Below are positions 1-43,699 of a stretch of DNA of 64,000 nt, piece after piece (the stretch's first letter is position 1; the number at the start of each line of letters is the position of its first letter). The notes below the pieces were generated by a model. The model did not search any database, was not told where the DNA came from, and saw nothing but the letters and a program-made list of their open reading frames with translations. A program made the translations under genes and the position numbers. This DNA is from Colletotrichum lupini (taxonomy: Eukaryota; Ascomycota; Sordariomycetes; Glomerellales; Glomerellaceae): NCBI RefSeq assembly GCF_023278565.1, contig NC_064682.1, positions 1-64,000 on the forward strand, given 5' to 3'.

Positions 1-106
1 CTAACCCTAACCCTAACCCTAACCCTAACCCTAACCCTAACCCTAACCCTAACCCTAACCCTAACCCTAACCCTAACCCTAACCCTAACCCTAACCCTAA
101 CCCTAA
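1..106. repeat. Telomere (CCCTAA)n
   Basis: About 17 to 18 uninterrupted copies of the hexamer CCCTAA run from the first base. They end with one slightly altered unit (an extra A) next to CCGAGG. The C-rich strand reads 5'->3' inward, as expected for the left end of a chromosome with TTAGGG telomeres, common in filamentous fungi. The sequence beyond base 106 is subtelomere. Confidence 0.98.
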
Positions 107-780
107 ACCGAGGTCTATTTAGGGTTAAGCTTATAGTTATAGCGCTACGTAATAGCGACTATATAAACCTCTATAAAGAAGAAGCCCGCCTTTACGGTCT
201 CGATAACGGGCTAGTTACGGAACTAAACTTTATAACCGGAGGCCTTTTCGAAGTACTTCGTAATATTTATTTCCTCACCGTTATTCGTAAAGACGTTATT
301 TTTAGTACTAGTACTACTATTACCGTAAGTTAGGTTATATACGAACGCTTTAATAATATAGGACTTATCCTAGTTCTCCTTATTACGGTACTTAGGGTAG
401 AATCGAAGCTTCGCTAGCTTTTTTAGGCGCTTAAAAATATTAAACGGCGTGCGTACCGTTTTACCGTTCTTATCCTATTAGTATATTAGTTTTAAAACCT
501 TAGCGATGTCCGGCGGGCTTAAGCCCTGCTATTTATAATCGCAAGTACCCGGAAAGTCTAAAGTCCTTAATAAAGAGATATAGTAGCTTATCTCCTTTCT
601 AAAATGCCGTATTAATAACGTTTATATTACAACCGAGCTCGAGTAGGGGCTAAGATCTATAGTCTTCTTATTACGCTTAATTAAAAAAAGATCCTTACTA
701 AGATACTAGCGGACTAGGTAGTTAAGGAAGTTTATATATATTAGAACGGTACTATTACGATCCGTTTTACTAGGTAATAT
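107..780 (-). pseudogene. Argonaute fragment (PAZ / linker 2), RIP-degraded and cut by the telomere
   Basis: On the minus strand one frame runs from about 780 to 107 if its in-frame TAA/TAG codons are read as RIP-mutated Gln or Trp. Near the telomere it contains INITKYFEK, then PVIETVKAGFF, then QRYNYKLNP followed by (stop for Gln)-Thr-Ser. This order matches the PAZ domain and start of linker 2 of fungal Argonautes (known family pattern: P-x-IETT-x-AG-x-FPMEVC ... QRY-x-x-KL-x-P-x-QT). Upstream residues are compatible with the region before PAZ. The frame stops at CCGAGG and the next bases are telomere repeats, so the MID and PIWI (slicer) domains are absent. CpA/TpG are nearly absent, so this copy cannot encode protein. 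Inference: a broken end inside an Argonaute copy was healed by telomere addition, and RIP implies that a duplicate existed. Confidence 0.7.
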
Positions 781-799
781 GTACTAAGAGCCCGGGTGA

Positions 800-1230
800 G
801 CTTACGTAAGGTTAAGCGGCCGTTATCGCTCTCTAAATTATCCGTACGGATTACAAAGTAGGCCGCGTTACTAGTATTTTAAAGAAATTTAGATATAAAA
901 TGCCCGGCCGTTATAACGGAATTTAGTTCTTCTCGTTAGAGGGTAAGCTTATATAAGGTCGAGCGGCGGTTAGTAATCTAGACTATCCGCACGGCTTACT
1001 TAGTAAGCCGCCCTACTAACATTTTAAAGAAATTTAGATATAAAATACCCGGCCTTTATAACGGAATTGCGGTTAGATATATCCCGGGGCCGGTTAGTTT
1101 ACGTAAGGTCGAGTAGCTACTATTTTTCTAAATTACCCGCACGGCTTACTAAGTAGGCCGCCCTACTAGTATTTTAAAAAAATTTAGATATAAAATACCT
1201 AGCCGTTACGGTAGAACTTAGATATAAGAA
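800..1230. repeat. Tandem repeat, 3 copies of about 148 bp
   Basis: Three diverged copies start near 800, 947 and 1,097. Each contains a shared core of the form TTTAAAGAAATTTAGATATA followed by a CCGG-rich segment and TTATAACGG. The copies differ mainly by transitions typical of RIP. The period (147-150 bp) is not a multiple of three, so a coding repeat is unlikely. Confidence 0.8.
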
Positions 1231-1826
<596 letters not shown>

Positions 1827-1989
1827 AAAAAAAAAAAATTATTTAAAAAAAAAAAAAAAAGGGAAAAGAAAAAATAAAGAAAAAAAAAAAAAAGAGAGCA
1901 TAACGGAAAAAAAGAAAAAAAGGGCTAAATAAGAAAAAATTTAAGGGATAAAAAGAAAAAATTATTAAACTTATTAAGACTAAGAGGCA

Positions 1990-4075
1990 AACTTCGTTAT
2001 TATAAGATCTAACTAGCGATCGTCGCGATTAAACCGATAAGCAAATTATAAAATAGGAGTCTATATATACGTTTACGTAGGCATATTATAAGTTATATTA
2101 ATTTTATAATATTAGCATTCCGCGAGCTAAACTTAAGAGCGGACGCTATACTATTATAAATCTTATTAAGACCCGTCGTTTTTATTACTAAACTAATCCG
2201 TAAAGCAAAGTATATTAGCGTATTATAATATAATTTCTAATTAACGTTAAAACGTAGCTACTTAACCGTAACGCTTTTTAATAAGAGTTCTTTCCTAAGT
2301 AGTCTTAGTATACTAGGCTAGTAATTAAAGATTAGTATATATTACAGCTCGTAGAGTACTATACTTAGTAATATAACTAAGACGTACTATACTTTTTATT
2401 AAAAGAGTAGCGCGCGGTAATAGGGGTCTTATTACCCTTATAAGGGGTTAAAAACTCGATAATTAAGAGGGTAATTTTAAAAAACTTATAAAGAGGGGCC
2501 GGCTCCTCTTTCTCCTCGCCCTCCTCCTCCTCTTCTTCGGTCTAGCTATTAATAGCGACGTTGCCCTAAGTGCGGTAAATAGTTAGTAAAGTTAGTACTA
2601 TACGTAAACGTTAAGTAGCTCGGTTAGTCGTACCCTTAGTAGCTATTTACGTAGTATTTTTATTAATATAGCATCCGGACGCGGCTATATTTTAAAAAAT
2701 AATATCTAGCTAATATTATAAGAATATATAAGCAAACCGCGTACTTAGGGCCGATAGGCTTAATAAATGGGTAGAGACGTATTTTAATAGCGGGCTTAGT
2801 AGCGGACGTTATATTCGCTAGTCGTAATAATAATAGGGGATAGTTTAGGAAATATAATATTAAGAATAATATATTAGTTAAGAACTAGAGTATATTATAG
2901 TAAGAGAGTTAGAAACGAAATATATTACGGCAAGATTTTATATTTATAATTAGGAGCGGCGGTCGTATATTAATATAAGGTTAGACGTATATAGAACCGT
3001 CTACTGTCCTATAAATATATATATCCCCCTCGAGCCTAATTTTTTTAATACGCCGTACTTATAAACCGTATGCTAGTTTATTAGTACTTAGTTACGAAGG
3101 GTCTAGTTAACTACTAGATCCCGTTATATAATAAAACTAACCGAACCGCGGATACTTATATACTCGCGGGGACGGACCTCTTCGTTCTATTTAAAATATA
3201 TAAGGGTAGTATATATAAATAAAATTACCGCGGTATAATAAAATATAACTACTCTACGGAAATAAATAGGTATATAAGGAGACGAGATTAGTAAGTAGAT
3301 ACTATACCCAGGGCAGAGCGGAATATTATTATTATAGTTAATTAATTACTACTTAAATACGTAATACTAGGTTTTTTAAGACGAGGCGGCTATAAGCTCT
3401 ATATATATAATAGTTAGGAATACCGCTACCCCGCGTCCGTCCCCTATAATCTACTTAAAAAGCTCTTTACTAGCGTATTATTATAGCTAAACCCCTTCCC
3501 TAGCTACCCTTAGCCTCCCCTAAGTTTATACTAAGGCCTTACTTAGGCGCTTATTTTTTTACTATTTTATTAGAGCTAGGACGCTTAGCGAGATCTAAGC
3601 TTATATATCGAGGTTAGTTAGTAATTTAGGAGCGTAAGGTTTATAATCGTACGAGCGGATATATACTTAAGGCTTTATACTTAAGCTTAGAGGCCGACTC
3701 GGGGTATGTAATAACGAAGTCTTCGAGCGGAGTATTTATAGTAGTTTTTTTACTTTTATAAGTAAGAGGAGACGCACGGCTAGGGAGCTCTTAGCTAGGA
3801 TCCGTATCGAAGCTATCGGACTCGGAGCTAGACTTATCTTAGCCTTCGTTTTTAAAGCTATTAAAGGCGCTATATAGGGCTAGCGGGTTTTAGAGTTAGC
3901 TAATATAGCGTTTAGTAAGGACTCGGGGTTTAAGGACTTACCTTATTAAAGTAAATTAGCCGCCTATTTCTTAATAAGACCCTTAGCCGCTATTTTAAAG
4001 CAGATCTTTTTATATATAGCTTATTATATAGTTAGTATTATAAAGAGAACGGGAATAGGAGGGAAGAGGTAAACG
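1990..4075 (+). pseudogene. RIP-degraded long reading frame of about 690 codons, unknown family
   Basis: One + frame can be followed from about 1,990 to 4,075 when TAA/TAG are read as RIP-mutated CAA, CAG or TGG. The implied protein has coherent composition: basic and aromatic segments such as RARTLSEI and RTARELLARIRIEAIGLGARL, and a Ser-rich stretch around 2,505-2,545. Dozens of in-frame stops make it non-functional. I do not recognise the family. A telomere-linked helicase was considered from its position, but I could not find a Walker A or DEAH motif. It could be a transposon ORF or a duplicated subtelomeric gene. The reading frame is seen. Its former coding status is inference. Confidence 0.55.
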
Positions 4076-4188
4076 CACGACCTAAACGCCGTTTTATTTT
4101 TTAAAAAGAGAAGCCTCGGCGCTAGCGCCCGCAGTAGGCTTCTTAGTAATATTAAAGTTTATATTATAAGGATTAGGGGCTTTTTTTT

Positions 4189-4215
4189 TTCTTATATATA
4201 TATATATATATATAT
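4189..4215. repeat. (TA)n microsatellite
   Basis: A pure TA dinucleotide run of about 25 nt lies just downstream of the degraded frame that ends near 4,075. Confidence 0.8.
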
Positions 4216-5960
4216 TTAAGAGAGTGAGCGAGTTTATTATATAAGAGAAAAAAGTAGAAGTTAAAAGGTGCTACGGAATTAGGTAGATATAAATAAGAAA
4301 AGAATATTTTATAAGCTTCTGGAGTAGGGCTAGGTAAGGCGGTAAGTAGGGCTACTATCTCTAAGAGCCGTACGTAGTTAGCTAGCCCGTAAGAGAACGT
4401 AAAGTACGTATATATTAAGCGGATATAGTAGTTTAGTAATCCGTTAGGTAGGTACCTCGGGGTCGGCTAGAAGCGAACGAAGTAGGGCGGTAGTTAGATA
4501 TATAACGGGCGTATAAGCACGTCTATATCGGATTAGAAGTCTATTTTAACCTCGCTAACTAAGTATAATAATCGTAGCTTACTTAGCGTACGGTTAAATT
4601 TCTATCTTTACGTATATATAAAAATAATAAAGTTTAATTATACTCTTTATTAACTTATAGCTCGGACCGATTTTTTAATAATATAAATACTAGTAATTAG
4701 CAACGTATCCCTAGTACTTAAACTACTATTCTATATATAAGGTCCTACTTTATATAACCTCTTTCTTATAATAACCGTAATAAGGTCTCCTCGCGCCCGT
4801 ATTTCGTCTATTTCGAACTCGTATATAGCCTAATCTCTCCTACCTTAATAATACCGAGCCTAAATAATACCCGTAATATAAGCGAGCCTATTACTAACGG
4901 CGAGCCCGAAGGTAAGGAGCTTTTTATAATAAAGATCCCGAAATAGGCGCTCCGGTATTTATTTCTTAGTAACCGTACTAATTACTACCTATTTTTAATA
5001 AGACTTCTTACGCAAGGCCTTTTATAAGTAAATAAAATTAAAAAGTTTAACTAAGGGCGAGTGCGCGACCGCGGCTTTTAAAAATAAGTTACCGTTCTAT
5101 CCCTCTACGTACGTCTAAATAGCGAGCTAATATAAAAAAGCCCTTAAACGTATAAAAAAAGACTTCGTCTTTTATAAGGGCGGCTTATTAGTTAGCTAAG
5201 GCCGCTTACTTATTACCGTAATTATAATAAAGCGAGCTAAGTATAGCTAAGTTCGTAAGTCGAGCGTACTACGATACTACTCGCTAAAAGGACCTAAGGC
5301 TTACGTATTATATATATAATAACCCGAGAATAGTAAGTAAATTTACTAATAAAAGAATCTCCTTAGTACTTCTTAACTAGTTAGTAATACCCGATTTTTA
5401 TAACCGCTATTAGAGAGACGTAGCTAACTTTTAATAACCTCCCGTAACGTAATAAGTATACTAGCGAAACGTCGAGCGCAGATCCGTAAGTAAAGCGTAC
5501 TCTACTTTATCCCCTAGAGGCCGTATTATATTAGATCGTTAACTAATATATAGGCTAGTTATTTATAAATAGGCGGCCCGAGGTAAGAAGACTATATAAA
5601 TAGGACGGATAGGAGAACGGCCGTATAGGGGGTTATAGGGGTCTACGTCGTATTAGTATCGTATTTAGGGAAGTTATTTTATAAAGTTGCGCCGGGTAGT
5701 AGAACTAGTAGTTAATAGCGGTAAGTTATAAAATAGCGTTAACTATTATATAAGTTTACTATCGCAAGGGTTATAATTATAAATAAAAAACCCTATATAG
5801 TCCGATTATATTAGTTCCCGTTATATAACTCTACTACGTTAAGTAAACTAATATCTAATACCCGCGACCTCGAACTACGTACGCTCTATAAAAAAGAAGT
5901 ATTACTTAAAGCCTAGGAAACGAGCGCGGCTACGCGTATATTACGTTACTTTTTTTTTCC
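4216..5960. other. RIPped block with fragments of reading frames on +
   Basis: CpA and TpG are nearly absent. From about 5,080 to 5,945 the + strand can be read with RIP-type stops only (for example KALKRIKKDFVFYKGG), but I could not settle one frame for the whole stretch. No family is recognised. Nothing convincing was seen between 4,216 and about 5,000. Confidence 0.4.
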
Positions 5961-5981
5961 TTTTTTTTTTTTTTTTTTTTT
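5961..5981. repeat. Poly(T) tract
   Basis: A run of 21 T, preceded by a second T-rich run (5,950-5,958), ends the preceding RIPped block. Another pair of T-runs lies at about 6,267-6,294. On the minus strand these would be short poly(A) tails. Confidence 0.8.
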
Positions 5982-6389
5982 ATTCAATATTTTAATTATA
6001 ACTATACTATTAGTTTAGCTACTTAGGCTAGCGTATATACTAATATTAAATAGTAGGCGCTTATATAATCTGTTATACTTATAACGTAATGCGCCTAACT
6101 ATACTTAGTAAATTTTAATAAATTTCGAGCGTAGGAAACGGCTAGTCGCTATTATAAACTTATCTAAGTAGTATTATAGCAGAACGTACCGATTACGGGC
6201 GATCTAGAGTATACGTACCGTCTATTAATAATAACAGATAGCTAGGATAGCATTACTCGGGGATTTCTTTTTTTTTTTTTATGTTTTTTTTTTTAAGATA
6301 ATATTACTATATAAGTTGCCCATCCTATAAAAAGAATTACTTTTGTTTATAAAAAAGCTATTCGTAGTTAGGAACTTAACTATCTATCC

Positions 6390-9939: not shown

Positions 9940-11909
9940 TTAGTACTACTCCCGTTACTACTAAGCCCGATCGTAGTAATAAGGATATATCTTAGCTTAT
10001 TAAAGAGGTCGTTAAACCCCGTTAACTAAACCGTAATACTCGCCGCACTTACTAAAAAACTACTACCTCTACTACCGCTATCTCCGTATCTAAGCTAAGC
10101 TATAAAAAAAAGAGTAAGATTAAAAATATAAACCCGTAATACTACAGAGCTATTAAAGTATCGAGGAGATTTAATAAGTAGGCTATAAGCCGGATACTAA
10201 ATAAGTTTAGTATAACCCTCGAGACCCTCGAGTTTTAGTATTATAATATTTCTAAGTAGCTAAACGCCGATAACGCTTATAAGTTTATAATATTTTACTT
10301 CGGTACTATAATTAATAACTTTAAGGCTAACTTAATTAGGGTAATAAAATACGTAGATATAATTAAAACGGATATTTATATCGGCGCGAAGCTTACTTAG
10401 CTATCTTATAGCGCCGCCCTAAATAATAATAGCGGCGACCCGCTATTAAAAGAGTTCTATAATATTACTAAGCTATTTAGTATTGCCGTTAGGGAGGATA
10501 TTAAGGTCGGTACTAGCGCGGCGCGGCTATATAAGCTACTCCTCTTTATTAAGATCTCTATAATAAAATCGGAAATCGACGCTCTAGCTAAGACCCCTAG
10601 GGGCGATACCTTAGTAAAGTAGTTCGTTAGGAGGGGTAATATCGTTAAGGGCCCCGGCGATACTAATACTAAGCTCCTAAAAAAAGCTATATATAATAAC
10701 CTAAACCTCGACCCGAAATAGTACTTAGCTAAGGTAAAGGATATAGTTATACTTAGGGCGTTAATAAACGCCTTTAGCTAGGGTAGGCTAATATTCTACT
10801 TATAGACTAAGAGCGGGTATATTAACGCCTCCTAAACCCCCGACCCTTAGACGCTCTTATTAACGATTTTTTTAAGAACCGGTCTCTCTTATTACTTATA
10901 GGCCGCGATACGCTCGCTACCGTTTTTATTTATTTAAAAACGAACGATAACGGCGTTTTTAACTACTTAGCCGCCCTTAGCTTAGACTTTTATACCCGCT
11001 TAACGTATCTAGAGGGTTTAATAAGGAGTAGCGGAGAAGCGGTCCCTAACCCTAGAGTACTTTAGGTTATTTATTTTAGCTAGGCCGGGAGACTACTTAA
11101 TACGGCCGGGCTCTAGCTAATAAAGGAGCGACGGGTCTTTTCGAAAACTATATATAAGATTATAATAAAGGAGCTACTAGGATATAACTAAGTCGACCGT
11201 ATCTAGCGCCCTAAAAACGTCGGTAAGTTCGCGCTAGTTAAGGAAGTACTGTACTTTAGGGAGGAGTTAAAAAACGATAACAATAATTAAGATACTAATA
11301 AAAATAACGAGGATCTAGATACCGATAGAAATAACGAAAATAGCTCGTTATTTAGCTAAAGCGTCTACGCATCCCCGGGAGGAGGGATTTAGAAATAAGC
11401 GTTTAGCTCGAGGTTTTTATTTATATTAGTATTAGGCAGTTTAGGATATCTCGGTACTAGAGTTACGGTTCCGGGTTTATAGTTAATTTTTATACTTAGG
11501 TTATATAATAATATTACGGTAAGATACTATATTTATAAATAAGAGAATAAGACTATACTTTATAACCCGACGGCGGTTTGTTAGTTTATATATAGAGAAG
11601 CCGAGTTAAGTTTATTAGGTAGCGGATAATCGCCCGCGATTTATTAATAATTTAATTACGTAACGGCGCCGTATAAGAAATATAGGGGCTAGGTTATATA
11701 GCGATCTCGGCTTAAAATCCTCGCTAAGCAATCCGAGGCGTAGCCGCCGTTATAAAATAAAATATTAAACCGTTAAATACTATTATTAGTTATATATAAA
11801 CCGTTACTTATCGCTATCGATCGCTTAAAACTTAGGGCGGGAATCTCGCTCGGGGAGGATAAATAATACTACGAATTTATTAATAACTCTCGAGTCTTAA
11901 AAGTATTAT
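9940..11909 (+). pseudogene. RIP-degraded reading frame, 5' part, interrupted by a copia element
   Basis: From about 9,990 a + frame with RIP-type stops encodes a coherent sequence (for example SAARLYKLLLFIKISI and IDALAKTPRGDTLVKQFVRR). A frame change near 10,830 leads into a second open stretch with VYFREELK-like and Asp/Asn-rich segments near 11,270-11,350. The sequence is cut at 11,909 by the copia element. The flank after the element (from 18,884) continues with a similar coding-like stretch containing ERNLLREDY-type residues, so the two sides were probably one unit. The family is not recognised. Calling it a former gene or transposon ORF is inference. Confidence 0.45.
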
Positions 11910-12111
11910 TATTAGTATCCTTATTATAAGGTAGTTAGTTCGAACCGTAGTTGACGAAGAGATTAATTAAACTATATAAATATTTACGTAAGTATAAAAA
12001 GGAGGTTCTAACTATAGGTTAGGCTAGCTACGATAATCGTAAATAGGGCCCCTAATTAGCCCTTGCGCAGTCGGCTATATGCCGCGGTTAAATTAGATTT
12101 CTAATCCGATA
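11910..12111 (-). repeat. LTR of copia copy 1 (3' LTR in element orientation)
   Basis: 202 bp, aligning without gaps to 18,677-18,878. It is more heavily mutated than its partner. Next to it on the inside lies T-rich sequence (12,115-12,130) that reads as a polypurine tract on the minus strand. Confidence 0.9.
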
Positions 12112-15100
12112 CTAACTTTCTTTTTTTTTTATCGATTTAACCGCTACGGTTAGAGGTATAATTCGACCTCGGGCCCGTTTACTAAGTCGTCTCTTTTTCC
12201 TCCTTTTCTCTATTCTTTTCGTATAACCTATCCCTCTATTCGTATAGTAACTTTTCCGCTATTTATAAATTACTCTAATCCCTTGTTTAGTACTACTTTT
12301 ATAAAAGCGTTTATAAGGTTGTTTTTATTATTAATCTAACGGATCTTAAGTATCTCGCGCCTTTCGTACGATTACCTAAGGGCTATAATATTAATTATAA
12401 GCCTCTTTTCCTTCGTCGTTCCTAATTTAATAAGGTATTCGTATAGCGAGTAGGAATTAGTATAAATAACCGTTAGAATAAGTAAAAGGCTAATTCGATT
12501 AGTAATCTTCTTTAGCGTCGTTAAAATCGTATAAGAGAGGTTAACGCCGTTAACTATACTATAAACCTCCGACGCTAATATACTTCTCGTTACCTACTTA
12601 CTTTTAGTTAACGAGTAGTAGATTATATTACCGTATATAGTAAATTCGCTCTCGCTTATACTCTCGTTAGCTAGGATAATAATATACCCTAATTGCGAAG
12701 TGAGGTCGTTATTATTTATAAATAACCTATTAACGAAGACGTAGAGCTTGCTAGTCGTAAGGTCGATCGGGTAGTAGATAAGACCTCGATCGAGATTCGT
12801 TTATTATTATTTAAGCCGCTTATTAAATACCTCAACGTCTCGTTTAGTTAGATCTATAGCCTGCGCTACCCTAGCATAATTAAAAGTTACCTCGAGCTAA
12901 TAAATACTCGTAATATATACCCCTCGCGCAAGCTTAGCCTTATACCGCTTCTTAATATTAGTTACGTTCGGGTTAACGAGGTTAATCTTCTCGCCCTACC
13001 CCTTTTATTAAAAAACGACGGTTTCCCTTTTGATTATAAGAATCCTACCGTTAAATACTAGGGGGGTATTTATTATAAGGACCTCTTTTAGCTTCGCTAC
13101 GAAGCCCGCTTTCTAAAGCTCCTTATCCTCTTTCTTTATAAAGTTAATATTAAATAGGCCTAATATATCGTCGGTTTATATTCTAACGATCTTAAATTAG
13201 TTACTTTCGTACTCCGCGACTAGTAAGTACGGGTCGTACGTAGAGGTAACTATTAATAGTTAATTAATATAAAAATCGTAGTAAGTAGCTTACTAATAGG
13301 TGCCCGATTCTGCGAGCCTATATAGTAGCTTAAGCACTTTAATAATCGTACTTTCTAGGTACTTACTAGCTATTTCTTTCGGTAGATGGGCTAGGATATT
13401 CCTTATGAGCCCTGTGGCTAATTGGGTATATGCCTAGGTAATATCACGGCTCTAAATCTCGTATCCTTTCTTTTATAGTAATGCTATTAGTACTATTATT
13501 AATCGTTAGCTATAGCGCTATATAATAGGCGATTATGTAAGTAGCGTCGCTTTTTTAACGTCGCCGTACCCCTAAATTACGTATCTAGACTTCTCGTACG
13601 GTTAGGGTATTCTTTTTTTTTTAATTTTACGAACTATTTACGATTTAAATATACAGAGGTTTATATACTTTTCTAGATCGTAGAGGATAAATCGATAGAC
13701 CCCTCGATCGCGCAGAGTGTTTACTTTAATAAAATCTAATCCCTTATACGGCTTTTTAATAGTTATAATTACGCCTTCCTTACGTAGTTTAACTACTAGC
13801 TCGAAATCGGCTTTCTCTTTTACTATATAAAAGGTATTAATTACCTCGTTACTAATAATAAATTGCCGCGTTAGTACTTACTATCGTAGTCTCCCGCGAC
13901 GTATTAGTGCCCTTTTAGTAATTTCCTTTTCCTCGTCGTCTATTAGTACTACTACGACGATTTTATTAAGGATGATTTCTTATGCCTCTACTGCGGGTTA
14001 TATAGCTTCCCCTAGCTCTTCTTCTTCTTATAGGCTAGAAATCACCTCGATAGGATCTATATAATATAGTCTAACTGCCGTAATTAATACCTCGAGTAGC
14101 TAGTTACGATCTCTTATAACTACGTAAGAACGCTTATCGACGGAAATTAATTTATATAGCCTAGCCCATTATTAAGTAATTTCGCGCTATACTCATATAT
14201 CCGAATTTAGGGGTATATCTAAATTAACCCCTATATCGGGCCTATTGCGCGTAGTAATTACCTTATTAACTTACCTTTTTATACTTACCTCGCGCAGTGC
14301 CTATATTACTTTTTTAACTACTTAAGCTCGCTAGCTTATATCTAGTAACAGTAGCGAGGCTAAGGTCGTTCTTAAATATGCTCTAAATACTAAAAGCGTC
14401 GGTATAAGCCCGTTAGGCCCTATAGTATCGTTATAGTATTTAAGTACCGTCTAGAGGTATTCGTCGTTATCAGAATTAGGATTTTCTTTTTTAATAATTT
14501 TAAACGCTCTTTTTAATTACTAGTGCGCCCTTTTTACTTTTTTAATACTATAGTACGCTTTGACGGGCACGACTTTTAACTATATACTATAGGCCGTCGC
14601 ATTTTTTTAAAATTCTGCTAACTTAAAACTAGTACTAGCGTCGGTTCTAATACCGTTTAGCGGTCCCTAGTATATATCGATTTAGCTTTTTCGTAAAGCT
14701 ACCCATACTATTTTTGCTTATAGATCCCATAAGAATTACCTTACTTAGAATAATATAGCCTCGTCGATTATATATAGGACCGGTCGACTATTTAAGTAGA
14801 AGATATTAACGACGATCTCCTAATTAAAGTTAAGCTTATTACGTAATTTAAATTTGAATCTGCGTAGGCTCTGCGTATTTATTTAGTATTAGTAGCATAC
14901 TTTCGTTAACTACTCTAGCGCCCCTATTTTAATATTATTATTACCTAAATGCTTTAGGAGGTTATATAGCCTCGCGACCGACGGGTAGCTAAATCTCTAG
15001 TATAATCGTCTAAGCTCACTTTTCGTTAAGTAATTAATCGACTTCGTATCGTTAGTAAGCCTTATAAACGCGTGCCCCTATTATTGTTTAACTATTTTAA

Positions 15101-18100
15101 AATGCTTATAGCTAGAGATTCTATTCCTCGTATTATCGAATATAATACTTAGTCGATCTATATCTTTTAAATATAGGAGAAATAGGGTATTAATAGGTAG
15201 GATATGGAAAGTTATCGTTCCGAAGTACGTCTTTACTTCTACTATACCTAGGGCGACGATTTCCTCGCCTAGGCCGAAGCTAATCCTCGTAATACCTACT
15301 ATCGACGTATTAAGCGTTACTAGTGCGATTTTCTATAGCGCTTAGAATTACCCTTTTCCTCTTATTAACTATTACGATGCCCTAGTGTTTAGGATAATCC
15401 TATAGAAATTATCTAGGCCGTACTTTTCGTTCGCGTAAAATACTTATACGAGCTTAGTATTTAAGTAATCTAAGTAATATAAAAAGGACCCCTCTGGCTG
15501 CCCCTAGAATTGCTTAGCACCCTATCTCTTTTCTTTAGATATTAAGAGAGTAGAATTCTGCGCTATTAAATTCGTCCTTTTACCTACCTCCGTATCCGTC
15601 GTCTAAGGGACCTTCCCTTACTATTTATAAATAAAAGCTTGCTTATTAAGGGCTTTTATTACCTTTTTTTCGTTTAGCCTCGTATATCCTCCCGAGGCTA
15701 ACGGGGCGAAAAAAGAGTAGTTAATATTGTCGACTTCGTTATAATCTAATTCGTCGGTATAGGGGGTAAGATCTTCTTTATTTTCCGAATCTCCTATAGG
15801 GTGCGGGTACTTTAGGCCGCTAAATTAGCTACTTTCGCTAGGTTCCGTGCCCCCGGATCTGCCCTTATATATAACGAGTAATTAGTTAAATCGATAAGGG
15901 CTAGTTTTGCTATCTACTACCCTCGATTTTTTATATTATTCGTACGATTTAGTACGCTCTTCTTCGGAGTAGTTACTTAACTAATATCTATCCTTTTTAT
16001 AAATAAAATACTACTTTTTTTATTACCCTGCTCGCGAGTTAAATCTCTACTTATTTAACGAATCTAGGATTCCTTATTAGCGATTACTATACTTAGCTTC
16101 CTTTCCTTTCTTATTATACGTTCGGTCGACTTAATATTATTAATAAGGGCCGTCGTATGCCTAGAGGTAGGTTTAGCGCGGCATTCTTACCTTAATATTA
16201 AAGCTAGATTTTAGCTTCGAGTAGAGCGTCTCGTAGTTTTTAAGTACTTAGTATAGAGTTATTTTTACTTTTAGAACGCGCTAGACTACGGTATAAAGAT
16301 ATCCGACTTTTTACTCGTTAGTCCCCTTATTTAGCTAGGTTTTCGCTAGCTTATTAATTCGATCGATAAGCTCTTTAAGGATTTCTATTCGCGATTTACC
16401 CTTTATTATCCTAGCTATAGATACGAAAGAAATCGCTCGTAGCTTAGATAGGAGCTCTAGGTTCTTATTATAGGTCTCGAAGCGGCTTCGGATTGCCTTA
16501 ATTATACTAAGAAAGTCGTTTCGATCGAGATTACGCACCGCTTCGTAATAGTAATTAAAAGCTTTGCTTACGAGTACGATATTAACTACCGAATAGTACT
16601 AGTATTCCCTAATTCCGACTTTTTCGTAATAATCGTAAAATATCGTTAGGGTTTCTTATAAGACGTTATACTTCCCCCTAGAGTATAATTTCTCTTTCGA
16701 AAAGATCTTTTTAAGGTCTATAAACTACTTCGTATTTACCGCTAGATTTTTAATATTTATATACGATCCTTGCGTCGCTGCGTACTATTAGTAACTTCGG
16801 GTAGTCTACCTCCTTTTTTACTAGCTAATTAGTACCGAATTTTATATTAGTAGTAGCGACGAGCTATAGATCGAAATAGGCAGAATTATCGATTATCGTA
16901 CTTCTAGCACTATATTTTACCTCTATATATCCTTTTGTAACGATAGATTGCCGTTAGTAATTATAGGAAGGAAATCTGGGTCGTTTACTTTTTTTCTAAA
17001 TTTATTAAAGCGATTATACGCTTTATTAACTTGTGCCTAGGTCTATGTTACGAATTCCTCCTCCGTAATCGTCGCTACTAGGATTTCGTAAGGTTCTTAT
17101 GATTATAATTGCGCTAGTAGTACCCCTTGCCTATAGAGGAATTTATTAACCGCTTTTATAATTCCTAGGCTTGCGCTTGCGAACTATTTATCTAGCTAAT
17201 AGTTAAGGTCGTCTACGATCTCGTAGAATAGGGGTTGCCCCTATAGCCCCTTTTTTTTATAGACCTTAGTTAAATAGATTAATACCGCGTTAATTTGCTC
17301 GCCGTTAGGCTAATCCGCGATTTTATATATTTACGTCCCCTAATAGTCCGGGTTAATATTTACTTATTTATAAGGGATTAGAATTCTATCTAAGATCGGG
17401 TTTCGTCCTCTTCTTCCTTCCTCTAACTCGCTAAGGGTCGTACTCTAACTTATACTTATATTAGCGGTCGCTAGCGTATTTAATCTTAATAGGGATATAT
17501 TTAATCCGCGCGCCGGTTATAATAAATCCGTACTTTCGCTACCTAACGAATTTATCGGGGTCTAGGAGATTCCCGCTTCTTCTCGCCGTCTCGCTACTAC
17601 TCTCGTTTTTATTATTTCTAGTAATTACTACTACCTTTCTAAATCGCTAGCTATTATACCTACTAAGATCCTCCTTTTCGTTTAGTATAAAAGGGTAAGT
17701 TTTAGTAGTTCTTTTTAATAATAGTAGCGGCAGACGTTTATATTACCGTAATAAGATATAGTAATTAGTCTCGGGATCTTTACCGGTTACTAATTTTTCG
17801 AAATTAGTAATCTTACGCCGTAAGTTAGTATAAAAAGAAGCCTTTTAGCGGCCCTCTAGAGGATTCTTTTCTTTTCCCTCAGATCCTCGTCTTTTTAGCC
17901 TTTTCTTAAGCTAATAGTAACTCTAGCAGGAGGTCATAAGACTATTTTAAGGTAGCTACTTTCTTTTTAGGTTAATCTCCGAGATCCGTAATACTCTTAA
18001 CTCGATACTATTAAAACCCCTAAATCCCCTCCTCCCTCGTTAAACTATCCCTTATACTATATTCTTAAGTAATACCTAGGGGGTAGTTAAGGGAGCTATG

Positions 18101-18676
18101 AGAAAGTCGTTTAGATCGCAGGCTTAAGGGCGTACTTATAAGATCCTTATAGTAATAGACTTTTCTATATACTATAGATCTCTTAGCTTAATAACTCTTA
18201 TAGGGTTACCTTCGTTACTAAGTAAGAATGTTTATATTTAGAGATCCCCTTTTTTAATTACGTAGTACTCTTTTATACCGTACTATTAAGCCCGTTCGTC
18301 GCGCTAGTCGATTAGGTAAGTAGTCGTCGTACGGGGAATTCTTTTTACCGATTTAGCTAGTTAATTTCTAATTGCGGGCCGGCTACGGAAAAGTTATTTA
18401 GTAAAAAGGCTATTTAAAGCGACGGCGAAAAACTAGTTACTTAAGCGGTTCCGTTAATTAACGTAGTTTAACGTAGTAAACGTCGACCTCTCGTAAGTAG
18501 TAAAGGGCTACGATTACTCAATTCCGTACGGTATTTAAAAATCGCCCCCTTTTTCGTCTATTTTTATAAGGTTAATTAATACGAATCTCCTATCCCGTGC
18601 GGTATTAAGAGGTCGTCTCTTTTGCGTAATAAGATACCTTACCGATCTGTAATAGTAAAATTTAATTACTAATTAG

Positions 18677-18878
18677 TATTAGTATCCCTATTATAGGGTA
18701 GTTAGTTCGAACCGTAGTTAACGAAGAGATTAATTAAACTATATAAATATCTGCGGAGGTATAAAAAGGAGGTTCTAACTATAGGTTGGGCTGGCTATGA
18801 TAATCGTAAATAGGGCCCCTAATTAGCCCCTGCGCAGTCGGCTATATGCCGCGGTCGAATTAGACTTCTAATCCGATA
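18677..18878 (-). repeat. LTR of copia copy 1 (5' LTR in element orientation)
   Basis: 202 bp, partner of 11,910-12,111. Differences are nearly all transitions. This copy keeps several CpA/TpG sites (for example around 18,753-18,835) that are TpA in the other. No tRNA-like primer site was recognised next to it. Confidence 0.9.
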
Positions 18879-18883
18879 ATTAT

Positions 18884-20470
18884 TTATCGAGAGAGAAAGG
18901 GGAGGATTTCTATTATAACGCAACTTACTACGAGGATTATATTAGTATTAAAGAAACGCCGCGATACTAACCTAAATAATAATAAAAAACTAGATAAACA
19001 CGCCGTTTAAGTACTTAAAATAATACTAGGGGCTACTAATAAACAATCTCTAAGCCGTTATATACCTATTTAATATAGTTAAAGTGATCCGGGTAGCTAT
19101 TGCCCGTATTATAAAAAAAGTTAAGTTAAAGGAATATAGTCTTATACGCCTCGAGCGATCGCTCCTTTTTATAGAACTACTCGTTACCGCTTAGGTCGTC
19201 CTACTACTTATAATCTTTTATAATCGTACTACTTATTAAGAGTTACTATAAGAATAGGGTAACGAGGGGCGGGCTAAGGAGCGTTAAGCCCTAGTTAAGA
19301 TACGTATATACGAACTTAAGGTCGATTTTTAAGAGGCTAGGTACTTAGTATGCTAACGTATAGAATAGGTCTTTATTATTATTAACGCGGGCGACGCCGT
19401 TATATTAAAAAATACGTAAGCCGGGTAGTGCGAATAGTAAATAGGTAAACTCCTCCGCGGTTTACTTAATAACCTTCTAATTAATATTATTAAGGATCCT
19501 TATAAAAAAGAGGGAGACTAGCCCGGCGAGCTTCTTAAAGGGGGCAAGCCCCCTCGTATTAGTAATATAAGAGATACCGAGCTATAAATAAGCGAGCTTA
19601 GTAAAATACTCGAGAGCGGCTACGATATAAGGAGTCGTTACTAGGATTACTAGGGCGGATAATATAAAAAAGAACGCCTTTTTACTTATTTAAAGAGTAA
19701 GCTAGTAGCCCTATACTCGGGAGCTAAGTAGAGCTAACTCGTAGAGCGCGGGTGCATACTTTAATAACTATACTAAGCGCCCGGGTATAATAATATCCTT
19801 ACCCTAAGTAATACGCGCTACGCATAGGGCCGGCTATTTTAATACGAACTCGCCTTAATATAGCGAGGTAAAAGCGCTAAAGTTAAAGTTAATTATTTTT
19901 AACGTTTTAAACTCGCCGAGATAAAAAAAGAGTAGTAAGCTTAGCTTATTACCTAGGGCGCTCTCTTAATAATACTATTAACGGACGCAGAGCTCTCTTA
20001 GTATTCCCTATATTATTATATTATAAATCTACCTCTTATTTTCGAGATATATACTACGGAAGTTATCTAGGACCTAGAGCTTAGGGAAGCGTAGCCCGAA
20101 ATACTTAGCTACGGCGCCGTATTTAATCCCTAAAATAAACTATTTTTAAATATAGCGTCGCTCTTTAGCTACTTACTAAACGTTCTCCGGCTATTTTAAT
20201 TTTAATAAGAAAAGGGGTAGGGCGAGGCTCTACTATTTATAATTAACTTAGTATAAGTTACTTAGGCTCTCGTAATTAAGCTACTTAGTAACGGTAAGCT
20301 TTAGCTCCGTTAGGAACTAAAAGATCTAGAGTAGTATAATAGAGGTACTAAATAGAAATCGTTAGTAAGGTTACTAAGTATATAGATCTATATAAGGACT
20401 TACTAAAAAATACTTATCTAAGTAAGAGCCGTATATAAAAAGTTAGCGACGCGGGGTATATAAAGGCCGC
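18884..20470 (+). other. RIPped sequence, probable continuation of the frame cut by copia copy 1
   Basis: Coding-like + frames with RIP-type stops continue from the right border of the copia element for several hundred bases (to about 19,700). Beyond that no single frame was followed. It holds no RNA gene or complete element that I could recognise. Confidence 0.35.
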
Positions 20471-28310: not shown

Positions 28311-28980
28311 CTTTCCGATATTTTAGCCAATTCTTATAATTAGCATTTAGCAAATAAGACATTTATAAGGTTTTATTTTAAAATATCTAATACTATATTT
28401 ATAAGTTTATTATTATTATAACTATATTAATTAACTTAATTATATTTTATCCTATTTATATATAATAGCTAAGAAGGGTGTCGGGGTTATAAGACTATCT
28501 AGCCTTATATATATTCTTATTTACGTTAAGAAGGGGGGAGTTGCCTTAGACGATCTATCCTCTTAAGGGAAATATAATATCGTAATTAAAGGGGCTTTTT
28601 AATTTAATAAAACGTAGTTATAGCTACTCTCCCGTAGCCCGACTATATCTTATATAATACCGATAATATAATTACTAAGATCTATACTCGCTAGCGTCTT
28701 TTATCGTAACGCATACCTCGCTCTTATTTTTAACTTTTAAAAAATAATAACTACTTTTTATACGTTATAACGCCCGTAATAACCTAAATAAAACACACGT
28801 TGTAATGTTTTAGTAAAACACTTTCTATAGTTTTTAAAGTCTTCTTAATAGTAGGTGCTTTTTATAACTTATGTTCTATTTATTTTTTATTTTAAGTTCA
28901 ATTGCTTTTAAGTTTAATCGATTAGAATCGCGTTACGTCGTATTAGGCTATTATTTTTATAAGTTAACTTATTTCTATTA
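28311..28980. other. AT-rich segment interrupting the palindromic array
   Basis: About 670 bp without array units. A moderately GC-richer stretch lies at about 28,465-28,760. It could be a solo LTR or other insertion, but no matching terminal repeats or target duplication were found. Confidence 0.5.
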
Positions 28981-28984
28981 GTTA

Positions 28985-30515
28985 CTACGTAATAAACGAA
29001 AGAACACGGTAAGTTTATATAATTCTTTTAGTCACTACGCGACGGATAGAAAAATATCGTAAGTTTACTATATACTTTTAGTTACTACGTAACGGACGAA
29101 AGAATTTTAAGATTTTAGTTAATTATTTTGTCTAATACTTAGCGACCGAAAGGATTACTAAGATTTTGGTTAATTTTTTTATTTAATACTTAGCGACCGA
29201 AAGGATTACTAAGATTTTAGTTAATTCTTTCGTTCGCAACCTAGCGTACGAAAGAGTTTATAAATACTCGATTCTTTTGTTAGCGACTTAGTAAACGAAA
29301 GAATTTCGAGATTTTAGTTAATTCTTTCGTTAGCAACCTAGCGAACGAAAGAATTTTAAAATTTTAGTTAATTTAAGATTTTACTTAATTCTTTCGTTAG
29401 CGACCTAGCGAACGAAAGAATTTTAAAATTTTAATTAATTTAAGATTTTAATTAATTCTTTTGTTCGCGACCTAGCGTATAAAAAAATTTATAAGTACTC
29501 GATTCTTTCGTTAGCGACCTAGCGAATAAAAGAATTTTAAGATTTTAGTTAATTTAAGATTTTAGTTAATTCTTTCGTTCACGACATAGTAAATAAAAGA
29601 ATTTTAAGATTTTAGTTAATTTAAGATTTTGGTCAATTCTAGATTTTAGTCAATTCTTTCGTTTACTATATAGCGAACGAAAGAATTTTAAGATTTTAGT
29701 TAATTTAAGATTTTACTTAATTCTTTCGTTAGCGACCTAGCGAACGAAAGAATTTTAAAATTTTAATTAATTTAAGATTTTAATTAATTCTTTTGTTCGC
29801 GACCTAGCGTATAAAAGAATTTATAAGTACTCGATTCTTTCGTTAGCAACCTAGCGAACAAAAGAATTTTAAGATTTTAGTTAATTTAAGATTTTAGTTA
29901 ATTCTTTCGTTCACGATATAGTAAATAAAAGAATTTTAAGATTTTAGTTAATTTAAGATTTTGGTTAATTCTAGATTTTAGTTAATTCTTTCGTTTACTA
30001 TATAGCGAACGAAAGAATTACTAAGATTTTGCCCAATTCTTTCGTACACTATATAGCGAACAAAAGAATTTTAGTATTTTACCTAATTCTTTTATATACC
30101 ACATAGCGAACGAAAGAATTTTAAAATTTTAGTTAATTTAAGATTTTAGTTAATTCTTTTATTAGTAACCTAGCGAACGAAAGAATTTATAAGTACTTAA
30201 TTCTTTTATTAGCGACCTAGCGTACGAAAGAATTTATAAATACTCAATTCTTTTGTTAGCGACCTAGCGTATAAAAGAATTTATAAGTACTCGATTCTTT
30301 TATTTACGACTTAGCGTATAAAAAAATTTATAAGTACTCGATTTTTTTATTAATAACCTAGCGCACAAAAGAATTTATAAATACTCGATTCTTTCGTTAG
30401 CGACCTAGTATATAAAAGAATTTATAAATACTCGATTCTTTCGTTAGCGACCTAGCGCACAAAAGAATTTCAAAAATTTAGTTAATTCTTTTAGTTATCA
30501 CTTATTAAATAAAAG
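28985..30515. repeat. Palindromic satellite array, right block (about 28 units)
   Basis: The same 34-bp inverted-repeat unit as the left block (stem ATTCTTTCGTT / AACGAAAGAAT), spaced mostly 45-75 bp apart. Spacer types alternate in blocks: AAGATTTTAGTTAATT in the middle and TTATAAGTACTCG towards the right end. Higher-order repetition is visible: the run at about 29,370-29,640 recurs at about 29,690-29,970. There is no coding potential. Confidence 0.9.
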
Positions 30516-30660
30516 ATCTTTTAGGCATTACTTCTTAAATAAAAGAATTTCTTAAGTTTTATTTAATTTTTTTTAGTAATTACTTAATAGCTCAAAGAAT
30601 TCCGTAAACTTCTTTACTTATTTTTATTTATATTAAATTATTTAAAAAAACTTTCTTTTA

Positions 30661-30776
30661 TTAATATTAGGCGGCTATAGTAGTAAAGTAATATTAAGTA
30701 GTTACGGTAGTAAAGTAATATTAAGTGGCCACGGTAATAAAGTAATATTTAGTAGCCACGGTGGTTAAGTAATATT
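30661..30776. repeat. Palindromic repeat (CCACGG core), four tandem copies
   Basis: Four units of about 30 bp: TAATATT - AGTAGCCACGGTAGTAAAG - TAATATT. The last unit is close to a perfect palindrome around CCACGGTGG. Related single copies occur at 27,512 and about 8,966. Confidence 0.75.
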
Positions 30777-31358
30777 ATATTTTATAAATAAAAAAAATAA
30801 TTTATTTATATATATTAAAAAGTAATAACTAAGTAGTTATAATATAGTAATACTTTTATTAATTTCTCGCTTTTTTAAAATATACCTTTTTTTAAGTAAA
30901 AAGTATGCGAAATTCTTAAAATTTCCTAAACCTAAGCCCATTTAGCCTACTTAATAGTTCGTTCTAATAGCTACGCTACTACGCCGCTTGCCTACAAATA
31001 GTATGTACGGTGCCGACTTCTAGCTATTGCTAATTATTAAGTCTTAGTAATATTTGCGCTCTCGGAACTAGGAAGCTTAATCTCTATATATTTTTTAGGT
31101 CTTTCCTAAATTGAGCTATCTTTACGCTAATGGAACTACTACCCTATATTACCTTGTTGTATAAAGGAAGATGTAACTTGTATGTGTAAAAAGTGAAAGC
31201 GGTGACCGCTAGACTCTAGTAACTAATATATGTACTCTTCCTCTACGAACTTTACATATCTTAGTTTATGGGTATAGGCGAAAGTCGAGGCTGCTTTAAA
31301 CTTAGGCTTGATATCGGAAGCCTCCTTCCCTCTCCTTTCCCACCCTTTCTAGCCCCTC
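30777..31358. other. Partly RIPped unique sequence, no gene called
   Basis: CpA/TpG reappear from about 30,950, so this is a transition from saturated subtelomere to less mutated DNA. No coding region is supported. It may be 3' flank of the endonuclease-like gene described at 31,511. Confidence 0.45.
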
Positions 31359-31510: not shown

Positions 31511-31646
31511 TTAGTGAATACTTATAGCAGCGCGGTACCGTTTCCTTATATAATTATTAGCGTGCGACTCGATAACTAAATGCCCAGGGTTGATATAGTT
31601 AGTTTATCTATATAGGTGGCTTACGTCCAACCCCTCTAATAGACGG
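31511..31646 (-). pseudogene. His-Me finger endonuclease-like gene, 3' part (zinc loop), RIPped
   Basis: Joined across the copia insertion, the minus frame from 38,771-38,558 continues at 31,641 as LLEGLDVSHLYR, then NYINPGHLVIESH, then NNYIRKRYRAA, ending at a TAA (31,511) that may itself be a mutated Gln. The spacing SHL-[Y]-x4-[Y]-x-NP-x-HL ... N-x2-R-x2-[Y] is that of the zinc-binding loop of His-Me finger (homing-type) endonucleases, where the bracketed residues are normally Cys. TGC/TGT to TAC/TAT is exactly a RIP change, so all three zinc Cys appear to have been mutated to Tyr. This half lies in partly RIPped DNA; the other half is intact. What the protein did in the fungus is unknown. 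Confidence 0.68.
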
Positions 31647-31872
31647 TGTTAGTATATACGTAGGTAGGTCAGACCTTTTGGGTCGCGACTAGGTTAATAG
31701 GTTAGTATAGGTCTATTGCGTGTATATAAGAGGGGAAGATCGTGGGCAGAGCCCGCGGTCCCTTAGTAAGTATAAGTAGGTAGAAGGGTCCGTCTATACG
31801 GGCCCAGACTGCCTACCTACTACCCCTACCTAACTACTTAATAGGGCCCCTTTTCTACCTCGTAATCTAATA
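31647..31872 (-). repeat. LTR of copia copy 2 (left)
   Basis: 226 bp with intact TG start and RIPped end (CTAATA for CCAACA). It aligns gap-free with 38,332-38,557. Confidence 0.92.
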
Positions 31873-34800
31873 TTAGCAGTCTTCTACTTTTATAATAGAA
31901 AAGGCTAGAATAGGGGCTAGGTCCCCCGCTAGCGAGAACTAGTAATAGAATCTATAGTTAATCCCCTATTTAGAAGTGCCTAAAGCCGTATACTAAAATT
32001 TTAGTATAGCTTTTACTATAATTATTCATATAGAAATTTTAGTATCCCCTCCTTTCGATTACTTTTTAATCCTCTAATATATATAATTTATATACCTAAA
32101 CTCCTCGGAAATCGTCGAATTTAGCGTAGTTAAAAAAGAGCTTTTTATTAGTCTAACTATGCCCCGAACACGTACGTTTCTCTCTAAGCCGAAGCCCGAG
32201 AGGCGTATACGTTCGCTAGACGACTTACCGCTTATAATATATTACTATTTTAATTACGTATTACTTATCCTTCTATTTTAACTATAATAATTCCTTCGCT
32301 AATAAATCGTTCGAGGGACTTGTTCGGTGTGCTTTTTATAAACCCGTTAGCTAGGTTATCGTCGCTACTAATTTAATAAATCTCGCAAAGCTCGCGGCGT
32401 TTATATAATTACCTAAGTACTATAATATCTATTATAAGGCGCTTTTCTTTCGTAGTACTTAGCTTAACGAGGTATTTATATAGTAAGTATAAATCTATAT
32501 AAACTATAGTAAGGATTTTCGGAACGTCGAGTTATTTAGTAATAAGGTCTAGGGTAGTTAAGATAGTATAGGCGACGTTAATGCCTACGACTATTCTATA
32601 GACCTCTAATACTAATACGCTCTAGGTAATCCTTTTGCTCTTCGTAGAGCTATAATAGATAATGTTATTATTAATTATAAAGCTCTCGTTAGTCTGTTTT
32701 TTATTCGTAAGGATAATAATATAACCTAGCTATGAGGTATAATTAGCGTTATTTATAAATAACCTATTTACGAAGACGAAGAGTTTAGCTATAGTTAGAT
32801 CTAATAGTACGAATATAAGCCCTCGGTCTAAGTATTCTATTTACTATTTAATACGACGGTTTAGTATAGCGTAGTTAGTAAACGACGGATCTACTTAGTA
32901 TTAAGCGGTAAACGACGTATTAAAAGCTACTTCTAGTTAGTAAATTAATACGATATAGGTACTTCGAGCTCGCTACTTAACGAATTATTATTTAGTGTCT
33001 AATACTAAGGGGTTAACCTGCTTAAGCTTCTTCCCTTAGTTTTTCTATCTAAGCACTATATTAATACCTTTTAATAAGATAATCCCGCCGTTAAAAATAA
33101 GCGGCTCGTTAGCTAATAGTTACTACTTTAGTTTAGTTAGTAACTTAGCGCGCTTAAGCTCGGTTTTTTCTTTTTAACTAAAAGTCTTATTTAATAATCT
33201 AATAGTATTATCGGTCTATATACTAATAATACCGAATAATCCGCTTTCTCTTATTAAGACTAGTAAGTATAGATCGAACGTAGATATTATTATCTAAAGT
33301 ATTTTTAAATAATACTTACTATATATTACCTACTAGTAAGTGCTAGATTCTACGAGACTATATAGTGGCTATACGACGTATAAAATAGTGCCCTTAAGGT
33401 ATAGATAACGGATCCGAACTAGTAATTAGGTAAAAACCTTATAGTAAAGAGGTTAGCTCGATTATATATATACTTAGGTAATATTTTATAACTAAACAAC
33501 GTGGCCTTTCCGGATTAGGGTCGGGGCTAGGGCGAGGATTAGACGTTAACTAGTTCTTTAGATTATCGGTAACTACGTAAGGATCTCCTTCTTCCCCTCG
33601 TTATTATACCTTTATATAACTAAGCGAGACTTTTTAATAAGGTTAAGTCCTAGGTTCTTAATCTTATTAATAAATCGAGACTTAAATATTTTTATATCCC
33701 TATGTTTAGGGCTAAGTTAAACGAATTTAATTACCCCTCTCTTTACTAGTCCTAAAAGCTCTTTACTAATAGATTTTATAAAAAGTGCTCTTAGGGTAGT
33801 AATAATACCCTTACTACGGAGCTTAGTAACTAGCTTAAGATTTACCTCCTCTTTAGATATAAAATAGGTCGTAGTTATAAAAGTATTACTATAGCCGCGC
33901 CGTATTAATATTTTTTTAGTCCTCTTACTCCGTAATAAAAGGTCGTTGTTAATTACGACGACGATCTTATCGAGGACTTTGTTTATAGCGGCGCTATTAT
34001 TAGTTAGCTAGTTAACCGCGGGGATTAGTAAGCGGTCGACGTGCTCTATTATCGTAGCTAGCGGCTCGGGGTCGACCTCTTCTAAGTACTAGGGTTTAAC
34101 TATAGTAGCCCGGAAGCTTATTAGGCCGTGAGGTAATTTTACTACATAAGTAGTACTATTTATTAAGACGAGCTTAAATAGGCCTTTCTATCCCTTACCT
34201 TCTCGCTAGATTTTAACGTCTAACTATAGTAATAAATTAATAATATAAGAGATATTTAGTCCGTTTCGAGTAGCTAGTACCTCGCTTACTTACCTACTAA
34301 TATAAAGTTTGCGGACTTCCCTTATTACTTTTTTAATTATTTTTATACGTTAGGTAATATCTAGCGACGGTAGAGATTTATTAGAAATATGCAAAAAAGC
34401 TCCGAAAAACGAGGAGTATAAGAACGAGGCTATTTAGGCTAACTATATTGTTAATTACCTTAATTACGGCCTAAAGTATAGCCTCCGCGCTTATTAATAA
34501 GTACTTATTTTAAATAATATCGTATACCCTTTTAAGTACTGCGTAGTATCTCTTAGCTTTACTAATATTATTATAAGCTTTAACGAGTACTTCTTTAACC
34601 TTAATAAATATAAATTTAGTAGAGGATTTAAACTTTGCGGCACTAAAGTTCTTATTAGTATTTATAATAATCTAGTCCGGCGGACCGAGGTAAACGTCGA
34701 TTTAATATAGCCGAAGAGCCTCCTATATATACTTCGTAGTTATGTCCGCGAGGAACCTTACTACCTAGAAAGAAGTAGTAGTATTAACGACGTAAAGCAC

Positions 34801-39970: not shown

Positions 39971-40217
39971 ATTATATAGTAAAGTCTTTAGGATATTACT
40001 TTTATACAGTTAAATAAGTAGTAATAGGGGTAATAGTAAGAGTAATAGTAGGGGTAATAAAGAGTAATAGTAGTAGGGGTAATAATAAGAGTAATAATAA
40101 GGGTAATAAAGAGTAATAATAAAGAAAAAAGTTATAATATAAATAAAATAGTAAAATAAAGAAAATAGTAAAAGTATTAATAAATTAAAACTAACTTAAA
40201 AACTATAAAAACAATAA

Positions 40218-42992: not shown

Positions 42993-43699
42993 CTGAAAAG
43001 AGTCTGAAATAAAAGAATATAATAATATAATAATAATAAAAAGAGATTAAAAGAGGTTTTTAGTATTAGTTATAGTGTTTAGTAGTATAATTACTTAGTT
43101 AAGAAAAGTAAAACTAGACCTTAGGGGGTAGAGTTAAGGTCTTTTTATATTCTTCTTACTTTTCTATAAGATTCTAAAGGTTTCTATTATATTACTAATT
43201 ATTATATATAATTAATAATACTATTAATAATAAACTACTCTTTAGAATAATCTAGAATTACTTTATCATTAATTATTATTAATATTATTCTACTCTATTC
43301 TATTAGATTCTAGACGTTTCTACTAGATTCTAGACGTTTCTATTATTTCTACTTATAGTAATTAGTATTATTACTAATTATAAGTATACTATATATACTT
43401 ATACTACTATATAAGTCTTATTACTATAAATAGAATACATAGAAAGTTCTAGAATTTCGTAGAAACTTCTAGAATATAATAGAAATTACTAGAATACTTA
43501 AGAAATATATTAATAATATAACTAATTATTATTAAATATAATAGTAAAAAGAGTTTTAAAGTAAAATACTAATTAGTAATCTATATAATCTTCTAGAAAT
43601 CTAACTTAATTATATATACTTTTACTCTTCCCCCTTTACTTTACTTATTTTTACTTTTTAATAATAATAATAATAATAACTCTTTTAAAATATATATAT

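Follow-up and report, generated by a model that had tools for sequence, protein, structure and literature searches.

Chromosome ends of Pyricularia (Magnaporthe) oryzae are cut at arbitrary points and receive telomere repeats there, and 1-4-nt seeds were present in 19 of 24 de novo telomere events, according to the accessible part of PMC7367193. Nested terminal deletions with new telomeres between strains of this species are likewise described in the available portion of a second article (PMC8381367). In Colletotrichum higginsianum, subtelomeric elements (DHX_G198 and relatives) of 11.3-18.5 kb, which possess helicase and DUF3505 domains, occupy all 24 subtelomeres, as stated in the accessible sections of PMC5576322. 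The Terminons of bdelloid rotifers are giant, chromosome-end-associated and distally truncated elements (PMC6431247, accessible part).

The DNA analysed here, referred to as the window, comprises 64,000 nucleotides at the left end of contig C9 of Colletotrichum lupini (GCF_023278565.1, NC_064682.1, positions 1 to 64,000). The genome amounts to 63.44 Mb in 12 contigs (C1 to C12; L and R designate their left and right ends). For C. lupini, genomes of 54.5-63.4 Mb and, in the reference CLUP02, an accessory chromosome 11 of 0.52 Mb are given in the accessible part of PMC11645255; contig C11 has a size of 0.523 Mb. The telomere of C9L caps an Argonaute-derived fragment that lies within a RIP-mutated module of at least 44.7 kb, which is present in a single orientation on eight of the 21 telomere-capped ends. 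It is highly probable that a duplicated, RIP-mutated subtelomere of an acutatum-complex Colletotrichum acquired this arrangement through repeated terminal loss and telomere addition de novo. Such loss and healing of chromosome ends is a known mechanism. Ends truncated at arbitrary points and bearing added telomere repeats are shared with P. oryzae; however, compared with the accessible parts of PMC7367193 and PMC8381367, the C. lupini series is spread over several ends within a single genome and affects a RIP-mutated module instead of rDNA or MoTeR arrays. With the elements of C. higginsianum, as far as they are described in the available sections of PMC5576322, the module has in common that large end repeats lie in one orientation between telomeres and chromosome-unique DNA and are tied to segmental duplications, but it is larger, is present on fewer ends, and gave no helicase match in the stretches scanned. 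The coordinates of the features are summarized in Table 1.

Table 1. Features at the left end of C9 and telomere cut points of the module, given in coordinates of the window or of contig C8 (C8:)
Feature	Position	Strand	Remarks
Telomere array, (CCCTAA)n	1..106	.	terminal, left end of C9
Telomere/module junction	106..107	.	zero overlap of telomere register with retained sequence; sister copies on C8, C2, C5 and C2:7.86 Mb run on
Argonaute pseudogene fragment with RIP mutations (N domain end, linker 1, PAZ)	107..777	-	
7-nt insertion vs C3	558..564	-	frame-shifting; in all five module copies aligned
Site of 67-nt deletion vs intact C3 gene	640..641	-	frame-shifting; in all five module copies aligned
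Site of 18-nt deletion	677..678	-	in four of five: common to C9, C8, C2, C5; not in the more diverged C2:7.86 Mb copy
150-bp tandem repeat, 2.6 copies	832..1208	.	just upstream of the truncated 5' edge of the pseudogene
Module copy of C9	107..30956	.	interrupted by the element at 11905-18885
7-kb LTR-type insertion	11905..18885	.	214-nt direct repeats at ends, 92% alike
Proximal module edge	30956..30957	.	last bases identical in C9, C4R, C1R; sequence beyond differs
Cut point C2R	C8:12783		
Cut point C5R	C8:26857		
Cut point C9L	C8:33312		
Cut point C7L	window 3320		
Cut point C10R	window 23182		
Cut point C4R	window 29360		
Seventh cut, C1R			266-268 bp of module kept (~270 bp); short repeats, exact point uncertain

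The terminal array of C9L consists of perfect CTAACC repeats (17.7 copies, 100% match). Next to it, the minus frame from base 768 contains the motifs PVIETVKAGFF and RYNYKLNP, and ten of its 220 codons are stops (eight TAG, two TAA, no TGA); a preliminary description of this DNA had named these motifs in a minus frame with RIP-type stops. The Argonaute identity that was proposed there is borne out by the DNA match to the intact Argonaute gene on C3 (76% identity, E = 5.7e-103) and by a tblastn comparison, in which the C3 protein scored 209 bits against the fragment and 23.9 bits against the best of 500 first-order Markov resamplings. The profile search that had been recommended for the stop-masked frame (stops as X) did yield a Pfam PAZ match, but its 19.4 bits (E = 0.0011) fall short of the curated cut-off of 28.8, so that this score by itself would be weak support for the Argonaute identity, whereas the DNA match to C3 is strong. 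The PAZ domain of the C3 gene scores above the Pfam cut-off, and the match of the fragment to C3 ends before the tandem repeat. As judged from these alignments, the fragment is Argonaute-derived and is cut by the telomere at 106/107 of the assembly. The cut indeed lies directly after the residues QTS, which had been taken as the opening of linker 2. In the numbering of the C3 protein, QTS (589-591) lies within Pfam PAZ (485-593) and Pfam linker 2 extends from 603 to 649; the fragment therefore extends just to the end of PAZ, and linker 2 would begin about 11 residues further on. MID and PIWI are absent from C9, in line with the earlier statement that everything distal to PAZ has been lost.

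The preliminary description also called this copy RIPped, which the mutation pattern confirms. In comparison to C3, 76 of 92 CpA and TpG sites are mutated (CpA 41/48; TpG 35/44) vs 57 of 268 cytosines and guanines outside this context (C 28/134; G 29/134). The N-PAZ part shows 167 differences from C3 to C9 over 655 sites (C>T or G>A at 133, transitions in the reverse direction at 15 and transversions at 19), and the 34 non-RIP differences suggest that the Argonaute of the module may be a diverged relative of the C3 gene and not a fresh copy. The indices of the fragment (TA/AT 2.02; (CA+TG)/(AC+GT) 0.09) are strong, and the Argonaute genes on C3 and C1 have normal ones (TA/AT 0.66 and 0.51). 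Context bias, the TA/AT index and the presence of more than one copy (four other module copies and the C3 gene) mark the fragment as a RIP-mutated repeat; strong indices were found in all module copies measured (C9, C8, C5, C2, C2:7.86 Mb, C7L, C10R, C4R and C1R). A weak hint that RIP may have preceded the cut comes from a single base, the outermost one retained, which is mutated. RIP is tied to the sexual cycle. C. lupini is called asexual in the title of PMC11645255, the accessible part of which was used here, and the mutations are therefore probably old.

The longest copy of the module, at C8L, extends from C8:12783 or further out to C8:57440, and there is no longer copy for comparison. The genome DNA searches scored the best candidates only, so all copy numbers of the module are lower bounds. 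The window is colinear with the sister copies over many kb (with C5 over 11.8 kb in one piece, 88% identity), and further stretches of the module were detected on C7 (twice), C10, C4 and C1. Two copies are interstitial (C2 7.83-7.87 Mb and C7 96-111 kb); they are more diverged (81-86% vs mostly 87-90%), and the distal part is missing from them too; the former ends distally between the equivalents of C8:20001 and C8:23011. The proximal edge seen in the table lies, by coordinates, within 4 bases on C8, C5, C7L, the second C7 copy and C2:7.83 Mb. On C2R and C10R, the terminal copies end before reaching it (at about window 30497 and 29953, respectively), and a simple one-block history would need further deletions for this shortfall. 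The LTR-type insertion is missing from the C5 copy, and related sequence is present at C8L, C10L and C11R; no Pfam domain was found in its six stop-masked frames. Positions 228537-233988 of C2 resemble three separate parts of the module at 67-74% and might possibly be a donor locus of these parts.

At six differing mapped points, the telomere directly abuts the module. The loss of a silencing gene at such a RIP-saturated end had been called an unusual combination, but seven of the eight module-bearing ends are visibly cut by a telomere at differing points, and C9L is one member of this nested series with an array like those of other ends. Relatives of the 7-kb LTR-type element are likewise cut by a telomere, at C10L and C11R. 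The overlap between telomere register and retained sequence was counted at eight junctions, six of the module and two of the LTR-type element; C1R was excluded, and C10R was counted by eye owing to its irregular array. It amounts to 0 nt at C9L, 1 at C5R, 2 at C2R, 0 at C7L, 4 at C10R, 2 at C4R, 3 at C10L and 2 at C11R. The mean of 1.75 nt exceeds that of random cuts (0.73 nt; P about 0.013); for the six module junctions alone it is 1.5 nt, which is not significant (P about 0.07). Thus, a seed of 1-4 nt is present at six of the eight junctions and absent from C9L and C7L.

The telomere repeats stand directly on non-telomeric sequence which continues elsewhere, as is expected of de novo addition. 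For the junction set, de novo telomere addition is thus the likely cause. The earlier claim of a break healed in this way is probably right for the set, with overlaps of 0-4 nt; at C9L itself, where the overlap is zero, de novo addition is not proven. The two junctions without a telomere-like seed, C9L among them, and the lack of significance in the module ends alone speak against repeated loss and telomere addition as the explanation. Moreover, telomere healing does not account for every loss, as the distal part is missing from the interstitial copies and an internal 17-nt telomere match is absent from C2.

The ends might also have been capped through recombination with the telomere of another chromosome instead of by telomerase at a break. 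This is unlikely: zero overlap at two of the eight junctions, including C9L, would agree with it, and subtelomeric recombination is known in fungi according to the accessible part of PMC7367193, but the arrays abut the module with an overlap of 0-4 nt and no donor subtelomeric sequence lies between. The data do not separate the two processes, and either could cap an end.

The sharp proximal edge, which has differing flanks in the three copies that could be read and recurs by coordinates in five others, as well as the single orientation and the variable distal truncation, resemble the properties of a mobile element. Rather improbably, the module would be a giant element of chromosome ends in the acutatum complex, as yet undescribed and with a fixed inner edge, that spreads between ends, transports host-gene pieces (Argonaute and parts like C2:228-234 kb) and is worn from outside by repeated telomere healing. 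It is also improbable that it represents a giant chromosome-end mobile element with fixed proximal attachment and distal truncation, in which the Argonaute is captured cargo. Against such an element, neither a reverse transcriptase or helicase nor any further mobility domain was detected in the module stretches scanned with Pfam in stop-masked frames, although heavy RIP limits this search; the only matches were Piwi and one sub-threshold Smim3. The scan covered the module outside window 778-1899 and 28880-30956, with two of the six frames of C8:20001-23000, and C8 past 33000 through its C9 homologue only. In addition, there are no telomere repeats at the proximal edge, 330 of the 331 genomic 17-nt matches to the telomere are located in the terminal stretches examined, and the proximal edge is not reached by the C2R and C10R copies. 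Terminons, which are attached to telomere repeats, code for a reverse transcriptase (PMC6431247, accessible part); neither property was seen in the module within the limits set by heavy RIP, and a Terminon-like attachment is not supported. The same applies to a telomere-linked helicase module: none of 80 Helicase_C matches in the genome is found in the outermost 50 kb of a contig, though heavily mutated copies could escape such scans.

With regard to the assembly, 22 ends were considered (C1-C11, left and right), and terminal arrays of roughly 72-130 bp were found at 21 of them. C12 (36.6 kb), which is probably mitochondrial judging from its size, was excluded from this count; its left 6 kb contain no telomere repeats. 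C6R has no telomere and breaks off in an rDNA unit (18S, 5.8S and the start of 28S; 3284-6000 of the C6 right-end stretch), and probably an rDNA array is located there that remained unassembled. A clipped contig to which telomere reads were wrongly joined is a very improbable source of the C9L junction. Sister copies extend past the cut, so a mix-up among repeats is conceivable; however, arrays of similar length are present at nearly all ends, and C8 and C9 differ in the N-PAZ part at 59 of 662 sites, all of them transitions (0 transversions), which makes the copies separable.

A search of the genome with window 107-800 retrieved, besides the window itself, at least five more stretches, on C8 (91% identity), C2 near its right end (89%), C5 (88%), C2 at 7.856 Mb (83%) and C3 (76%). 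The four copies other than C3 run on past the cut of C9 into a degenerate PIWI, without an open MID/PIWI frame. They match the translation of the second exon of the C3 gene from residue 63 and stop at residue 736 of 840, and they lack roughly the first 196 and the last 104 residues. All four carry an insertion of 1.2-1.35 kb inside PIWI, at residue 625, where short inverted ends and a TA target, like those of a small DNA transposon, were recognised by eye. The fragment in the window also lacks the 5' end and has the 67-nt deletion and the 7-nt insertion. Since the missing 5' end and the frame-shifting indels are common to all five copies aligned, the telomere removed part of a pseudogene.

A genome search for an intact Argonaute, which had been proposed earlier, was successful: intact predicted Argonaute frames are present on C3 and C1, both with matches to all six Argonaute Pfam models searched (above cut-off, C3 five of six; C1 two of six, Piwi and linker 1). 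The loss of an RNA-silencing gene, or removal of the slicer domain with a consequence, as initially assumed, does not agree with a copy that was already a pseudogene and with these intact genes, and the truncation of C9 is very likely without consequence for RNA silencing. That a working or near-working Argonaute at C9L lost its slicer domain by the break is hardly credible, for although PAZ is present with the telomere directly after it, the common 67-nt deletion and 7-nt insertion shift the frame, the sisters lack both termini and contain the PIWI insertion, and intact paralogues exist.

The preferred explanation, repeated terminal loss with telomere addition, would comprise several steps. 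An Argonaute segment related to the C3 gene may have been copied into subtelomeric DNA, where it would have lost its ends and gained frame-shifting indels and the transposon-like insertion. The block might then have spread among chromosome ends via ectopic recombination or break-induced replication. RIP would have mutated the copies of the module, and separate terminal losses on individual ends would have been capped by telomerase, the loss on C9 presumably happening to stop at the end of PAZ.

The Argonaute encoded on C3 shows 99% identity to a protein of Colletotrichum paranaense and 98% to one of C. simmondsii, two species of the acutatum complex. A relative in C. lindemuthianum is named Quelling-defective 2, and the PDB match is to QDE-2 (chain 2yhb). 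The C3 gene is a full Argonaute of the fungal QDE-2 type; the window copy is a pseudogene fragment. The C8 copy is closer to the acutatum-complex protein (59% identity, with stops counted) than to six others from Colletotrichum (43-49%). As the Argonaute piece is nearest to the acutatum-complex sequence among the seven Colletotrichum proteins compared, out of 530 proteins retrieved, a foreign origin was dismissed. A processed retrocopy was also considered, but the matching part lies within one exon of the C3 gene, so that intron loss is uninformative, and the poly-A run at 1626-1893 is located upstream of the 5' edge of the fragment. This run, 268 bases of nearly pure A (94% matches), separates the 150-bp tandem repeats from the remainder of the module.

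In titles and abstract openings, with subscription literature thinly covered, no description of an Argonaute piece or of nested telomere cuts in Colletotrichum subtelomeres was found, and the terms 'subtelomer' and 'repeat-induced' are absent from the accessible text of PMC11645255. Because a single genome here offers a naturally occurring set of cuts, capped by telomeres and all in the same alignable sequence, the sequence preferences of healing become countable in a filamentous fungus. Furthermore, a fragment of a silencing gene at a chromosome end can mimic gene loss despite intact family members.

Beside these features, a repeat of ~355 bp (window 31646-32000) was found at 91-95% similarity at 29 or more places, among the best 35 of 186 candidates scored; its copies are more alike than most module copies. 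Window 40000-45000 is a very AT-rich block (GC 0.18-0.26), and part of it, near 43.7-44.9 kb, recurs at the ends C1R and C7R. Two unmutated genes, for a Methyltransf_16-type methyltransferase (46148-47365) and an asparaginase (58377-59147), lie in islands of normal GC at the left end of C9, which shows otherwise strong RIP indices around them.
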